In this document: one piece after another, positions 6,782 to 29,465 of the stretch
Layout: each line of letters begins with the position of its first letter
Numbering within the stretch: the first letter of the stretch is position 1
Origin: Candidatus Peribacteria bacterium RIFCSPHIGHO2_01_FULL_51_35
Lineage (GTDB): Bacteria > Patescibacteriota > Gracilibacteria > Peribacterales > Peribacteraceae
Assembly: GCA_001787535.1 (NCBI GenBank)
Contig: MFXP01000004.1
Coordinates: 1-64,000 of the forward strand
Reading direction: 5' to 3'
Length of the DNA: 64,000 nucleotides
Program-made: the position numbers and the translations under genes
The notes under the pieces: model-generated
The model's database searches: none
What the model was told of the DNA's origin: nothing
What the model saw: only the letters and a program-made list of their open reading frames with translations

Positions 6782-6905
6782 TCGTAGAGTGAGGAGTCTA
6801 AAGGGGATGCATCCTCGGGGCAATAGGAGAGGCCAACGGAATTGATCCGTAGCGCGATTCGTCGATTTCTTGACATCGAAGATCCGTGAATTAGTATCTT
6901 TGGGT

Positions 6906-7139
6906 ATGGCGACTGCAGATTTTGAACGAGGCTTGGAAAAGGGAATCGTTTTGGGGGAAGGTAGAGCCAATGCAATGGAAGTTGCTGCGGCAGCTTCGCG
7001 TCGTAGGCCCGAAACTTTTTCCAAACTTAAACCTCACTTTGACGAAGTGATGTCGTCTTTTGATCGCCTTAAGATAAATATTTTGAAGGAGGAGGAAAAA
7101 CGGGCGCAACCATCATTTACAGAGGGCGAAGGCATCTGA
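6906..7139 (+). CDS. Hypothetical protein
   Basis: MATADFERGLEKGIVLGEGRAN... divergent from the PBP gene. Confidence 0.4.
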   Translation: MATADFERGLEKGIVLGEGRANAMEVAAAASRRRPETFSKLKPHFDEVMSSFDRLKINILKEEEKRAQPSFTEGEGI

Positions 7140-7198
7140 CGCATTCCATCGTTTGCCAGCATATTCCTTTTTAAGGCGTTTTATGCTATACTATTTCG

Positions 7199-7534
7199 AT
7201 GTATACATATCGATTCCTCACCTCGATTGCAGCCATTCTTTTAGGGCGCACGCCCGCAATGGCACAGGGAAGGACCCTCACGGTGGATCTCGGCGCAACC
7301 ATTTCATTCCCGGAACTCGTGGGCAATGCCGTGGAGGCGTTTGCCCTCATCAGCATCCTCTTTACAACGGTGCTGTTTCTTGTCGGTGCTTTTATGATGG
7401 TGATGTCCCGGGGCAAAGAAGACCAGGTTTCCAAAGGAAAAGACCTTATGATCCAGTCTTTGATAGGCATGGCCGTGGTCGGGGGAGCCTATGCCCTCAT
7501 TCGGACGATTTTTTGGCTCATTTACGTTGCCTAA
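7199..7534 (+). CDS. VirB2/TrbC-like pilin-type membrane protein
   Basis: Signal-like N-terminus, then two hydrophobic segments around GKEDQVSKGKDLMIQSLIGMAVVGGAYALIRTIFWLI. Confidence 0.55.
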   Translation: MYTYRFLTSIAAILLGRTPAMAQGRTLTVDLGATISFPELVGNAVEAFALISILFTTVLFLVGAFMMVMSRGKEDQVSKGKDLMIQSLIGMAVVGGAYALIRTIFWLIYVA

Positions 7535-7564
7535 AAAGCAAGCCCCCGCCTACAATCGAGTATC

Positions 7565-8209
7565 ATGGCAAGTGATCAGCCGTTACCGGATGTCTTGGAA
7601 AGACTGGAGCGCGCGGAGCAACTCAAGCTCAGCGGCGAGCACACCGAAGCACTCGTTATTTTAGAACAACTGCTCTTGGAGGATCCGGAGAATGTCTCCG
7701 CCCTGGAAGAGATCGCAGACAATGAATTGAGCCTGGGAAGATTCGCGCGCGCGGAAGCCGCAGCCAAACGCGCCGTTCTTTTGGACGATGAAAGTTACAC
7801 GGGACATTACATTTTGGGTTTTCTCCGCTCGCGCACCGAGGAATGGCCGGCAGCCATTGCCGCGCTGCGCAAAGCGAATGGTTTGAAACCGAACAATGCG
7901 GAAATTTTGCGTTGCTTGGGTTGGGCTCTCTTCACCAGCGCCAATGAACGCGCGCAAGGCATCGTCACCCTGGAACGCGCATTGAACTTGGACGGACAGA
8001 GCATACTGACTCTTTGTGACTTGGGTGTGGCGTATCTGCAAGTGCAGAATTTTCCGAAGGCAAAAGTCCTCTTCCTGCATGCGCTCCACTTGGAACCGAC
8101 GAACCTGCGTGCGCAGGAATGTCTGCAGGCAGTAGAACGGCTGGAAAAAATTGCAGGCAAGACGATGACGAAGGGGGAGGCGAGGGTCAGCCGGAGCGGG
8201 AAGAAATAA
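7565..8209 (+). CDS. TPR repeat protein
   Basis: Repeats such as HTEALVILEQLLLEDPENVSALEEIADNELSLGRFARAEAAAKRAV and LGVAYLQVQNFPKAKVLFLHALHLEPTN. Confidence 0.8.
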   Translation: MASDQPLPDVLERLERAEQLKLSGEHTEALVILEQLLLEDPENVSALEEIADNELSLGRFARAEAAAKRAVLLDDESYTGHYILGFLRSRTEEWPAAIAALRKANGLKPNNAEILRCLGWALFTSANERAQGIVTLERALNLDGQSILTLCDLGVAYLQVQNFPKAKVLFLHALHLEPTNLRAQECLQAVERLEKIAGKTMTKGEARVSRSGKK

Positions 8210-24567: not shown

Positions 24568-25578
24568 ATGGCTCGTAAGGTCTTCATCACCGGCATCGCA
24601 GGCTTCCTGGGGAGCCATATTGCCGAGCGCTGCCTGGAGCTGGGGTACGAAGTCTCGGGCTGCGACAATTTGATCGGCGGGTATTTGGACAACGTTCCGG
24701 ATGGCGCGGATTTCTACCAGTACGATTGCAAGTATTTGAATTCGATGAAGAAAATCATGCAGGGGATGGACACCGTGTACCACTGTGCGGCCACGGCCTA
24801 CGAAGGGCTCAGCGTTTTTTCCCCGCATCTTGTGACGCAGAACACGTACCAGATTTCTGTTTCCGTCATGACGGCCGCCATCGGCGTCGGCGTACGGCGC
24901 TTTGTGTACTGCTCCAGTATGGCGCGCTACGGCACGCAAGATCGCGTGCCCTTTACCGAGGACATGATCTGTAAACCCCAAGACCCCTACGGCATCGCCA
25001 AATATGCCGGGGAACTGACACTCGCCAACTTGGCGGACATTCATGGCATGGAGTACGTCATCGCCGTGCCGCACAACATCATCGGGCCCCGGCAGAAATA
25101 CGATGATCCCTACCGCAACGTGGCGAGCATCATGATCAACCTGATGCTGCAGGGGAGGCAGCCCATCATCTACGGCGATGGCATGCAGAAGAGATGTTTC
25201 AGCTTCGTGCAAGATGACATCCAAGTGCTGGAAAAACTGATGGACGAACCGTCTGTGAAGAGCCAGATCATCAACATCGGTCCCGACGAGGAATTCATCA
25301 CCATCAATGACCTGGCCGTCACCATCGCGGACATACTCCACTTCAAACTGGATCCCATCTACGTGCCCGGCCGGCCGCAGGAAGTAAAGCTTGCCACATG
25401 TTCCGCGGAAAAAGCGCGCACGCTCTTGGGATACAAGACCGCCTACACGCTGCGCAGAGGATTGGAGGAAATGATTGAATGGATTGCCAAGCGAGGAACC
25501 AAACGCTTCCGCTACACGTTTGATATTGAAATCATGAACGACAAAACGCCAAAGACGTGGACGCAGAAGATGTTCTGA
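24568..25578 (+). CDS. NAD-dependent epimerase/dehydratase
   Basis: MARKVFITGIAGFLGSHIAERCLELGYEVSGCDNLIGG..CSSMARYG..DPYGIAKYAGE. Confidence 0.92.
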   Translation: MARKVFITGIAGFLGSHIAERCLELGYEVSGCDNLIGGYLDNVPDGADFYQYDCKYLNSMKKIMQGMDTVYHCAATAYEGLSVFSPHLVTQNTYQISVSVMTAAIGVGVRRFVYCSSMARYGTQDRVPFTEDMICKPQDPYGIAKYAGELTLANLADIHGMEYVIAVPHNIIGPRQKYDDPYRNVASIMINLMLQGRQPIIYGDGMQKRCFSFVQDDIQVLEKLMDEPSVKSQIINIGPDEEFITINDLAVTIADILHFKLDPIYVPGRPQEVKLATCSAEKARTLLGYKTAYTLRRGLEEMIEWIAKRGTKRFRYTFDIEIMNDKTPKTWTQKMF

Positions 25579-25595
25579 GATTTATCGATGTGGCG

Positions 25596-25619
25596 GAGCC
25601 ACGGCGTTCGCGAACACCG
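25596..25619. repeat. Palindrome next to tRNA-Ser
   Basis: GCCACGGCG TTCGCGAA CACCGTGGC; related in layout to 63588..63616. Confidence 0.6.
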
Positions 25620-25709
25620 TGGCGGAGAGGGGGGGATTCGAACCCCCGAGACCCTTTCAGGTCTACGCGCTTTCCAAGCGCGCGCACTAGGCCACTATGC
25701 GACCTCTCC
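25620..25709 (-). tRNA. tRNA-Ser(GGA), CCA encoded
   Basis: Reverse complement GGAGAGGTCGCATAGTGGCCTAGTGCGCGCGCTTGGAAAGCGCG..variable arm..GGGGGTTCGAATCCCCCCTCTCCGCCA. Confidence 0.95.
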
Positions 25710-25793
25710 AGTTTATTAATTGTAGATGATCCATACAGAAGGTGCGCAGCGCACGAGACGTCATCTGTGCTACCTGTCCGTAGGCGACGCATT

Positions 25794-26297
25794 ATGACAA
25801 AAGAGAAGAAAAGAAGCTACCATAGCCGTATGGTCGCATTCCTCAAGATCATCATCACTCTCCTCCTGACTGCTTTGATGCTTGCGATTGCCTATGGTTT
25901 CTACCGCACATGGAAAACCGGATGGTCGGAAGATTATGATCGTTTTCAACAAGGTATGGTCCCTTCCGTCATGCCCGAAGGATTGTGGAAGGGCACGGCA
26001 TTGGGACTGGGTGAAGTTTCTTGGAAAGGAAAGAAGTTTTTCAAGAGCGGCACGGGCATCAATCTTGTAGGAGAGGAAGAAAAATTTCCTTTCCGATTTT
26101 CAAAAGAGATGAGCATCAAAGACGGCAAAAAAGAAGTCATTCGCCTGGATTACAATCAGCCCGAGAATCCTTTCTGGCTCCGCTTCATCGTGGATGAAAT
26201 GGTGAGCACGGGCGAAAACCAATTCCTTGGCATCGTGTACATCAAGGTGATTCCGTGGCTGCCGTTCCGCATGGGATACTTCACTCTCACAAAATAG
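25794..26297 (+). CDS. Hypothetical membrane-anchored protein
   Basis: MTKEKKRSYHSRMVAFLKIIITLLLTALMLAIAYGFY TM then a soluble domain. Confidence 0.7.
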   Translation: MTKEKKRSYHSRMVAFLKIIITLLLTALMLAIAYGFYRTWKTGWSEDYDRFQQGMVPSVMPEGLWKGTALGLGEVSWKGKKFFKSGTGINLVGEEEKFPFRFSKEMSIKDGKKEVIRLDYNQPENPFWLRFIVDEMVSTGENQFLGIVYIKVIPWLPFRMGYFTLTK

Positions 26298-26311: not shown

Positions 26312-27679
26312 ATGCCCAAATCCTTTCCTCTGGCGGAGATTGCACAGGCATTTGGTATCAACTTCCAAGCAGTGAAGCAGCCGGAACATTCCTTTTTCGA
26401 CAACGTTTTTATTTTGGATGAGAAGTTTGTCTTGAAGGCTCGGTACAAGAGCGCGGGACTTTCCGAGCACATAGAGAAGGAGGCCGTGCTCGTCTCAGCC
26501 ATCCGACCACGGATTTCTTGGAATGTTCCGGAGCCGATGCGTACAACAAAAGGAGAACTCTTTCTTGCATCAGCAGATCGCATCTGGACGGGAAGTTCCT
26601 TCCTGCCAGGTAGAACATTGGGCAATTGGAAAATGCTTCCCCAAGCGACGGATGCGGAGAATAAATCGGTGCTCGCGTCTCTCCGTTCCTTGCATGATGC
26701 GACGAAGAATTTGGAACTCCATGCATATGCCGATCTGAGCGCCTTTCCTCGCGATCTCTTGGAAAAACACCGAAAGATAGAACATTTGCTTTCTCCTCAT
26801 GCAAATCAAAGAATCAAGAATGCCGTGGCGCGTGTAGAAGAATCACGACGTTCTTTCTCGGGTGAAGAAGCCTGCTTTATCCACGGCGATTACCATCATG
26901 GGAATCTTTTGGTGGATGTGGTGGGGCACATGACGGGACTCATCGATTTTGATCGATCAAGCATCGGTCATTCGTTGGAAGATCTCTCCGTTACCGTGGC
27001 GATCTGCCTCAGCGATTATCGTTCCGCCGATTTTACGTTCAATGATCCTTTGTATAAACAGTTTCTGGATTGGTATGGGTTGCATTCGGATGAGCAGTCG
27101 CTGTTTGCGGAGTATTTCATATTGGCGTGCGTCACGTCCGTGTGGAATTTCTTTGCTGCCCAAGTTCTAGAGAACCGGGATTTCTATCTTTCGTACCAAA
27201 TCTCCAAATTGCAGAACGTATGTGCTCGATTTACGACGGAAGGATCCAAAACAGCACTGCCCGGAGGCACGTCCAACGAGCCGCGTTTCCCTGTGGAACT
27301 GCGGCCGCGTTACATGGAGCTGGCACGGGAGCTAAAAATAAGCGGTGCGGACATTGATGAGCATTTCATCCGTGGCAAAGGGCACGGAGGACAGAAGATC
27401 AACAAAACCAGCAGTTGCGTGGAGCTGAATCACCGTCCCACGGGTATTTCCGTTCGTGTGCAACAATATCGGGAGCAGCACAAGAACCGCATAGAGGCAT
27501 ACAAGCTTTTGATCGAGAAGATCGAAGAGCGGGAGAAGGGAAGCGAGTCCCGCAGGGCGAAGGAAAACTTCAAAATCCGCAAGCAGAAGATGCGCCGCAG
27601 CCGTAAGGCAAAAGAAAAGATGTTGGATGAAAAGAAGAAGCGCGGAGAGCAGAAAAAGTTGCGTAAGGACATCATTTAA
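26312..27679 (+). CDS. Fusion: aminoglycoside phosphotransferase-like kinase plus class-I release-factor (RF-1/ArfB-like GGQ) domain
   Basis: APH motifs CFIHGDYHHGNLLVD and GLIDFDRSSIGHSLEDL; RF-1 domain ISGADIDEHFIRGKGHGGQKINKTSSCVELNHRPTGISVRVQQYREQHKNRIEAYKLL with a basic tail, in one uninterrupted ORF. Confidence 0.88.
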   Translation: MPKSFPLAEIAQAFGINFQAVKQPEHSFFDNVFILDEKFVLKARYKSAGLSEHIEKEAVLVSAIRPRISWNVPEPMRTTKGELFLASADRIWTGSSFLPGRTLGNWKMLPQATDAENKSVLASLRSLHDATKNLELHAYADLSAFPRDLLEKHRKIEHLLSPHANQRIKNAVARVEESRRSFSGEEACFIHGDYHHGNLLVDVVGHMTGLIDFDRSSIGHSLEDLSVTVAICLSDYRSADFTFNDPLYKQFLDWYGLHSDEQSLFAEYFILACVTSVWNFFAAQVLENRDFYLSYQISKLQNVCARFTTEGSKTALPGGTSNEPRFPVELRPRYMELARELKISGADIDEHFIRGKGHGGQKINKTSSCVELNHRPTGISVRVQQYREQHKNRIEAYKLLIEKIEEREKGSESRRAKENFKIRKQKMRRSRKAKEKMLDEKKKRGEQKKLRKDII

Positions 27680-27752: not shown

Positions 27753-28292
27753 ATGAAAATATCTTCTTTCCACGATCTCTTCTTGCATGCATTGCGCGAC
27801 TTGTACGATGCGGAACACCAGATTGTCGAGGCATTGCCGAAAATGATCGACGATGCGACGAATGAGGAGTTGAAGGAAGCGCTCGCTGAACATTTAGAAA
27901 AGACAAAAACGCATGTGGACCGTCTGGAAGACATTTTTACCATACTGGATGTCGTCGCGAAGCGAGAGACATGTCAGGGCATGAAGGGATTGCTGGAAGA
28001 AGGAGATAAGACGATGAGCAGGATCAAGATTCCGGAAGTGATGGACTGCGCCATCATCAGTGCGGTGCAACGCGTGGAACACTATGAAATGGCGGGCTAC
28101 GGCACGGCACGTTGCTTTGCCGAAATGATGGGGCACGACGAAGCAGCGGATCTGCTTCAGGAAACGTTGGAAGAAGAAGCAGAGGCAGACAGGCTGCTCT
28201 CCGGCATTGCAGAAGATACGGTGAATGCAAAAGCAATGCTCAAAGCGAGCGGAATGAAAGAGGAAGAGGAAGAAATGACTGAAGTGAAATGA
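27753..28292 (+). CDS. DUF892/YciE-YciF-like ferritin-like protein
   Basis: FHDLFLHALRDLYDAEHQIVEALPKMIDDATNEELKEALAEHLEKTKTHVDRLEDIF..ISAVQRVEHYEMAGYGTARCFAEMMGHDEAADLL. Confidence 0.9.
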   Translation: MKISSFHDLFLHALRDLYDAEHQIVEALPKMIDDATNEELKEALAEHLEKTKTHVDRLEDIFTILDVVAKRETCQGMKGLLEEGDKTMSRIKIPEVMDCAIISAVQRVEHYEMAGYGTARCFAEMMGHDEAADLLQETLEEEAEADRLLSGIAEDTVNAKAMLKASGMKEEEEEMTEVK

Positions 28293-28318: not shown

Positions 28319-28408
28319 GTAAGGTAGGTATGGTAGGTAAGGTAAGTACGGCACATCAAAAAAACCTACCGTACCTACTGGACATTCCTGACCTACCTTA
28401 CTTCCTAC
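28319..28408. repeat. Inverted period-9 array between convergent genes
   Basis: GTAAG GTAGGTATG GTAGGTAAG GTAAGTACG; the right arm reverse complement reads GGAAGTAAG GTAGGTCAG GAATGTCCA GTAGGTACG GTAGGTTTT. Confidence 0.8.
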
Positions 28409-28614
28409 GCGAGCTTTCCTTGCTGCAATCTCTTGGCGAGCGTGCGCAAGTATCGTGCTGAAACTTTCATTGTTTTGTATGTTCCGGAAACAGGATCAAA
28501 CACACGCTTCTTTTGAAGATTGATTTTCCATGTTCGGCGCGTATGCCGCATGGAGTGGCTCCGGGTGTTGCCGAAAGAGGTTCCTTTGCCGGTTTTGACG
28601 CACTGTCTGCCCAT
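28405..28614 (-). CDS. rpmB: 50S ribosomal protein L28
   Basis: MGRQCVKTGKGTSFGNTRSHSMRHTRRTWKINLQKKRVFDP..VSARYLRTLAK. Confidence 0.9.
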   Translation of the reverse strand: MGRQCVKTGKGTSFGNTRSHSMRHTRRTWKINLQKKRVFDPVSGTYKTMKVSARYLRTLAKRLQQGKLA

Positions 28615-28778: not shown

Positions 28779-29465
28779 ATGACAACTTTTTTAAATCCCA
28801 CTTTCATCATCAGCATCCTCATTGCACTCAGCGTCCACGAATGGGCGCATGCCATGATGGCGTATCGCTTGGGGGATTACACCGCGAAGGAGCAAGGAAG
28901 ATTGACCTTAAACCCCATCTCCCATTTGGATTTGCTTGGCACCATCCTCTTCCTCACCGTTGGGTTTGGATGGGGCAAGCCCGTGCCCATCAATGAGCGC
29001 AATTTCCAGCATCCACGCAGAGATATTGCTCTCACAGCGGTCGCAGGACCTGCAAGTAATCTTGTGCTGGCGCTTGCGGCGTACATTAGCCTCACCATTC
29101 TCTCCGCTTCGCTCCCGACGCAATCAGTCTTTGCGTTGTTGGACATTGCTTCCGGCGGGTCGCCACTCCAGATTTTCTTTGTACAACTCCTGGCAAGTTC
29201 GCTCTTCATCAACCTGGGTCTTATGGCATTCAATCTTCTGCCCATCGCTCCGCTGGATGGATCCAAAGTGCTGCAATCGTTTGTGTCGTACCGTTACGAG
29301 CGGCAGTTCGATGAATTTATGCGCGTGGGTCCGTACATTTTGCTGTTTCTTCTGCTCGGGGAACAACTGTTCGGCTTTCCGTTCCTTTCGGGGTGGATTA
29401 CGACGATCATGAGCGGCGTCCTTTGGTTCTTCCAATCGCTGATGCACGTCATGCCGGGACTCTGA
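28779..29465 (+). CDS. Site-2-protease (M50) family metalloprotease
   Basis: ALSVHEWAHAMMAYRLGD (HExxH-like), FNLLPIAPLDGSKVL. Confidence 0.92.
   Translation: MTTFLNPTFIISILIALSVHEWAHAMMAYRLGDYTAKEQGRLTLNPISHLDLLGTILFLTVGFGWGKPVPINERNFQHPRRDIALTAVAGPASNLVLALAAYISLTILSASLPTQSVFALLDIASGGSPLQIFFVQLLASSLFINLGLMAFNLLPIAPLDGSKVLQSFVSYRYERQFDEFMRVGPYILLFLLLGEQLFGFPFLSGWITTIMSGVLWFFQSLMHVMPGL

Follow-up and report, generated by a model that had tools for sequence, protein, structure and literature searches.

The locus at positions 26312 to 27679 of the window (the whole stretch of 64,000 nucleotides analyzed here, from the small genome of a Candidatus Peribacteria bacterium, G000) raises the question of whether an APH-type kinase and a release-factor domain are truly joined in one protein, and what such a protein would do. 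The first-pass annotation had read a single ORF in which an APH-type kinase is followed by a GGQ domain and a basic tail; both domains exceed their Pfam cut-offs, and the quoted motifs are found. The frame starts with ATG at 26312, extends with its final sense codon to 27676, closes with a stop at 27677–27679, and contains no internal stop. A start at the upstream in-frame GTG (26255) would lengthen the protein by 19 aa but make it overlap the preceding ORF at 25557–26297, and ATG 26312 is preferred as the start for this reason. The preceding ORF (+ strand, 246 aa, no Pfam match) ends 14 bases ahead of the fusion ATG and possibly belongs to the same operon. The domain search proposed for this protein finds both APH (PF01636; residues 29–259; E 1.5e-21; 77.7 bits vs a cut-off of 23.2) and RF-1 (PF00472; residues 340–451; E 8e-23; 81 bits vs 35), each far above its curated cut-off. 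PF00472 is the sole Pfam match in the release-factor half, which agrees with the claimed absence of a codon-recognition domain. Residues 325–455 are strongly basic (computed pI of 10.35; 39 Lys plus Arg vs 20 Asp plus Glu), and the kinase half is only mildly acidic (computed pI of 6.0). The gene features the following parts:

26312..27679, + strand: fusion gene of 455 aa, APH-type kinase plus predicted C12orf65/MTRFR-like release-factor domain (ORF, Pfam, and a second example, P0002, in genome G049)
26312..27241, + strand: kinase half, residues 1–310, with the PF01636 match at 29–259, β3 Lys K42, putative αC Glu E55, catalytic D193, N198, and Mg-binding D212 (Pfam; alignment of relatives; fold match to APH(2''), YtaA, NahK, and Mph; model pLDDT of 73)
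26882..26905, + strand: HGDYHHGN catalytic-loop motif of the kinase, residues 191–198 (H191, D193, H195, G197, and N198 invariant in five relatives)
26942..26953, + strand: IDFD metal-binding motif of the kinase, residues 211–214 (D212 and D214 invariant in five relatives)
27242..27283, + strand: linker, residues 311–324 (none of the 12 aligned codons encodes the same residue in both fusions; low model confidence)
27284..27676, + strand: release-factor half, residues 325–455, co-linear with the whole stand-alone factor minus its start Met, with the PF00472 match at 340–451 (pLDDT mostly above 88)
27380..27394, + strand: GHGGQ, residues 357–361, with the catalytic GGQ motif G359, G360, Q361 (GGQ invariant across 29 aligned sequences)
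27584..27676, + strand: basic C-terminal helical tail (KQKMRRSRKAKEKMLDEKKKRG...), which aligns with the mtRF-R tail

The fusion is real and rare, occurring in two of 74 genomes from the window's family. Of these, 55 hold a close relative (E better than 1e-20) of the release-factor half: in 53 it stands without a joined kinase, and in two—the window's genome and G049—it is fused to one. G049 belongs to another genus, so the spread of the fusion, when followed across the family, reaches beyond the genus of the window. The two fusion proteins share 46% identity over residues 7–454, with 39% in the kinase, 0 of 12 positions in the linker, and 65% in the release-factor half. The pN/pS between them is 0.51 for the kinase half and 0.39 for the release-factor half, silent changes thus outnumbering replacements in each, with silent sites near saturation. 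This pattern, in which kinase and release factor are more conserved than the linker, appears as expected for two folded domains connected by a loose linker. An assembly or frame artefact joining two genes, toward which the release-factor gene standing alone in most relatives might point, can practically be dismissed, as the same open frame recurs in two independent assemblies, one of them from a second genus (G049), and no second copy of either half was found in the two fusion genomes. Separate-gene homologues had been put forward as a sign of such an artefact; the 53 stand-alone copies represent the ancestral state instead.

With the full protein or a kinase profile as query—the latter revealing the kinase half only—and with incomplete sampling, no further full-length fusion was found in the 74 family genomes, 288 genomes of the class (partly the same genomes), 379 genomes of the phylum, or 49 genomes of another class, nor among the matches from viral contigs, plasmids, and phage records. 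The open-licence papers searched yielded no description of a kinase–release-factor fusion, in keeping with the earlier remark that no characterized protein has this layout; the text of PMC6514570 makes no mention of a kinase. Neither domain is new, the release-factor half being a known kind of rescue factor; it is their combination that appears new. The release-factor half can be aligned from residue 2 of the stand-alone factor (M-x-FPVEL...), the Met being substituted in both fusions, and no Shine–Dalgarno-like site was found on reading the sequence ahead of the junction codons. Because of this loss of the start Met and the lack of such a site at the junction, the release-factor half depends on the kinase frame and is probably made solely as part of the fusion.

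The release-factor half appears closest to human C12orf65/mtRF-R (MTRFR). As a single sequence, its best match in the PDB is the human protein (7a5h; E 1e-15), and ArfB lies far behind at E of about 1e-3. A profile of 28 relatives matches C12orf65 at E 2e-25 over profile positions 16–129, through the tail; the best entry other than C12orf65 by the same profile is an RF1 (E 8e-17). The matches to ArfB/YaeJ are weaker in both searches and end just past the GGQ region. In the AlphaFold model, the pLDDT of this half lies at 73–76 around the GGQ loop, and the top Foldseek match is chain C of 7a5h, mtRF-R on the split mitochondrial large subunit. Strands 369–374 and 379–383 are joined by a turn of four residues, and the αi helix between the final two core strands is absent from the model. 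This helix is assigned to ArfB class 1 and ICT1 but not to C12orf65 (PMC6514570). Of the earlier label RF-1/ArfB-like, the RF-1 part stands by its Pfam score, and the ArfB-like part falls by the better match to C12orf65/mtRF-R and the missing αi helix; as judged by sequence and model, the half is better called C12orf65/MTRFR-like. Compared with mtRF-R, which acts in human mitochondria, it shares the GGQ motif without a codon-recognition domain, the lack of an extra helix between the last two strands, and the basic helical tail; it differs in being bacterial, in carrying an N-terminal kinase, in having a predicted activity, and in that no MTRES1-like partner was seen. With ArfB/YaeJ/ICT1, it has in common the layout of a codon-independent GGQ rescue factor with a basic tail, but it matches them weakly and lacks the αi helix in the model. 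RF1 and RF2 contain the same RF-1 catalytic domain with GGQ, whereas the window protein features neither a codon-recognition nor an N-terminal helical domain, and separate RF1 and RF2 genes are present in the genome.

The release-factor half thus described is, by its sequence, the family's ordinary small rescue factor, a predicted peptidyl-tRNA hydrolase. Stand-alone relatives with 55–58% identity in the best segment are found in records titled Dadabacteria, Smithella, and unclassified bacterium (L024, L025, and L026), and the factor is therefore not confined to the lineage of the window. In one genome, a stand-alone release-factor-like gene occurs as a tandem pair (L015; G020:C10:1196-2027).

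The rescue repertoire of the genomes is small. Exactly three RF-1-domain proteins occur in each of five genomes (G000, G049, and three relatives): two have frames of ~350 aa and are read as RF1 and RF2, and the third is the factor under study. No ArfB was found among the RF-1-domain proteins of these five genomes, and the factor is the only noncanonical GGQ protein found in the fusion genomes beside RF1 and RF2. A tmRNA is located in G000 at C16:74178-74590. RqcH/NFACT exceeds its cut-off in none of the 74 family genomes, with 10 of 14 controls positive. The S4-domain matches listed for G000 all sit in open frames at least 244 aa long, and among them no short S4-only MTRES1/RqcP-like protein was seen, although such stop-to-stop frames could still contain short genes. 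Next to tmRNA, the MTRFR-like factor is the sole GGQ protein of codon-independent type found in these genomes, where neither RqcH nor ArfB is detectable. MTRFR is a human disease gene, and to our knowledge its bacterial relatives are poorly characterized; a natural fusion to a kinase would be a direct lead to the stress that the factor answers.

The locus of the fusion is shared with the stand-alone gene, which in many relatives is followed by the same two neighbors as in the window:

28408..28614, − strand: gene of ribosomal protein bL28, marking the native locus of the stand-alone factor (PF00830, E 8e-21; conserved neighbor)
28779..29465, + strand: gene of an M50-family peptidase, a conserved neighbor of the stand-alone factor (PF02163, E 1e-14; synteny)

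The G000 fusion therefore lies at the ancestral locus. A DUF892 gene (27753–28292, + strand; E 1e-51) is located between the fusion and bL28 and is not seen at that place in most relatives. Both neighbors are absent beside the G049 fusion, which has PheT ~13 kb away on the same contig. The trees of the release-factor half are poorly resolved: once long branches are removed, the fusions pair as sisters (78/21), and with these branches kept, one long-branched stand-alone copy falls between them. In the PheT tree, the two genera are apart—G000 beside G032, and G049 beside G022, G023, and G025—and a single origin would therefore need transfer or loss. A single fusion event with later transfer, or an ancient one with subsequent losses, appears more likely than two independent fusions, since both use the same rare kinase.

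The kinase half features the catalytic residues expected of the APH fold. A loss of these residues, considered at the outset as a possible objection, is not seen: the HxDxxxxN and DxD motifs are kept, with D193, N198, and D212 invariant in five relatives. The β3 residue at the VAIK position is Lys in the window protein (K42) and Arg in P0002 and in three free-standing relatives (L023, L039, and L040). The solved macrolide 2'-phosphotransferase 7w15 has Arg in the same column, so the exchange does not imply inactivity. Beyond the two fusions, the kinase was found neither elsewhere among the 74 family genomes nor in the class sample. A free-standing relative with ~28% identity over the full length occurs in a Kaiserbacteria genome (L023), and more distant ones in two genomes of the phylum (L039 and L040). 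No release-factor gene adjoins the kinase in the stretches read of these three, and the fusion alone therefore links the two functions. Because the full-length AlphaFold model, built from a two-sequence alignment, has a pLDDT below 60 over most of the kinase half, this half was modeled alone, which gave a pLDDT of 73, a pTM of 0.60, and a poorly predicted catalytic loop. The modeling suggested earlier thus serves the two halves unequally, with the release-factor half mostly confident and matched best by mtRF-R, and the kinase half of moderate confidence.

The fold of the kinase half was tried as a guide to its substrate and was rejected as such, since antibiotic and metabolic kinases match the model at similar levels: YtaA, APH(2''), aminopropanol kinase, N-acetylhexosamine kinase, amicoumacin kinase, homoserine kinase, and Mph. 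Fold and catalytic motifs are shared with APH(2''), Mph, AmiN, homoserine kinase, YtaA, and NahK; compared with these, the window protein has about 10–18% identity, stays below the cut-off of every named NCBIfam kinase listed, and is fused to a release-factor domain.

As judged by sequence and models, the protein is probably bifunctional, uniting a functional rescue factor and a small-molecule kinase. This reading contains both coupled and uncoupled versions, which the alternatives below split, and our confidences in them overlap accordingly. We infer the hydrolase activity, the kinase activity, the substrate, and any coupling. The C-terminal half would be a release factor of the C12orf65/mtRF-R type, the only one in the lineage to work independently of a stop codon. 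Its basic tail would dock on the rRNA of a ribosome that has stalled or of a large subunit that has split off, and the GGQ loop would enter the peptidyl-transferase center, where water would free the stuck chain from the P-site tRNA; the factor would act alongside tmRNA. Going by its anatomy and family, the most likely task of this half is to free peptidyl-tRNA on stalled ribosomes or split large subunits. In humans, mtRF-R works on the split large subunit together with the S4-domain partner MTRES1 and, when assayed in vitro, gave no release with intact ribosomes (PMC8786322). This route may not transfer to the window protein because no short S4-only protein was seen in the listed G000 matches. 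The N-terminal half, a kinase of the APH fold, would derive from a free-standing small-molecule kinase, with a short variable linker having joined both halves in the ancestor of the fused gene, and would phosphorylate a small molecule near ribosomes in an ATP- or GTP-dependent manner. The model points to a small molecule as the most likely substrate.

How far the two halves work together is where the alternatives differ. The most serious contender, if somewhat short of probable, is an accidental read-through fusion of codirectional neighbors, with an unrelated metabolic kinase, the rescue factor as before, and no mechanistic coupling. The stand-alone rescue factor is the common state, the linker is unconserved, and the kinase gene is rare, patchy, and without link to rescue genes in the three genomes with free-standing copies; against an accident, two well-separated genera both keep the fusion, at 46% identity and with the stand-alone start gone. 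The bifunctional reading is in turn opposed by the rarity of the fusion and by most relatives lacking the kinase.

A ribosome-binding inhibitor as the substrate would best explain the joining, and a compound that has nothing to do with translation is about as possible. The inhibitor is held tentatively because metabolic kinases reach the same level of similarity. In its dedicated form, an antibiotic-response factor, the kinase would inactivate a ribosome-targeting antibiotic (aminoglycoside, macrolide, amicoumacin, or similar) and the fused release factor would clear the ribosomes that the drug had already stalled. The kinase half does resemble APH(2''), APH(3'), Mph, and amicoumacin kinase in sequence and fold, and the other half is a stalling-rescue domain. 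Such a direct link is plausible but on the unlikely side: homoserine kinase, YtaA, N-acetylhexosamine kinase, and aminopropanol kinase match about equally, the kinase half is mildly acidic, and none of the named models for aminoglycoside or macrolide kinases attains its curated NCBIfam cut-off, the best being APH(3') with 31.5 bits vs 205. The antibiotic-response or RNA-kinase role offered in the first-pass annotation is, on these scores, speculation.

A kinase with a macromolecular substrate at the ribosome—rRNA, tRNA, a ribosomal protein, or a translation factor—that marks or repairs stalled complexes is quite improbable; a tether to a ribosome-binding domain would steer the kinase there, and the half is weakly similar to PRK11768, a protein kinase model (E 8e-7), and to the TCAD9 conflict-system domain (E 5e-5), both below cut-off, but its best matches are small-molecule kinases.

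Within the bifunctional reading, a two-in-one ribosome protection, in which the kinase would disable a jamming compound or mark a ribosomal component and the tethered MTRFR-like domain would release the chain, is possible, if on the unlikely side. If true, damage sensing and rescue would be physically coupled in one bacterial protein. A GGQ domain coupled to another activity is also found in the C12orf65–MJ1316 fusion of eukaryotes and in the PrfH–RtcB association, which have been suggested to relieve or repair damaged translation (PMC6514570); the partner in the window protein differs in being an APH-type kinase and not an RNA-end-binding or ligase module.

Among viral contigs (IMG/VR; L113–L184), RF-1-domain proteins occur as RF2-like full-length forms of ~350–390 aa and as short GGQ forms of ~120–220 aa. 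In another genome (G216), the gene at 6807–7946 on the − strand of L080 encodes an N-terminal C12orf65-like RF-1 domain (residues 16–119; E 2e-20) and a C-terminal YaaA domain (PF03883; residues 124–362; E 8e-79). This second fusion, to a peroxide-stress protein, suggests that the release-factor domain is repeatedly joined to stress enzymes.
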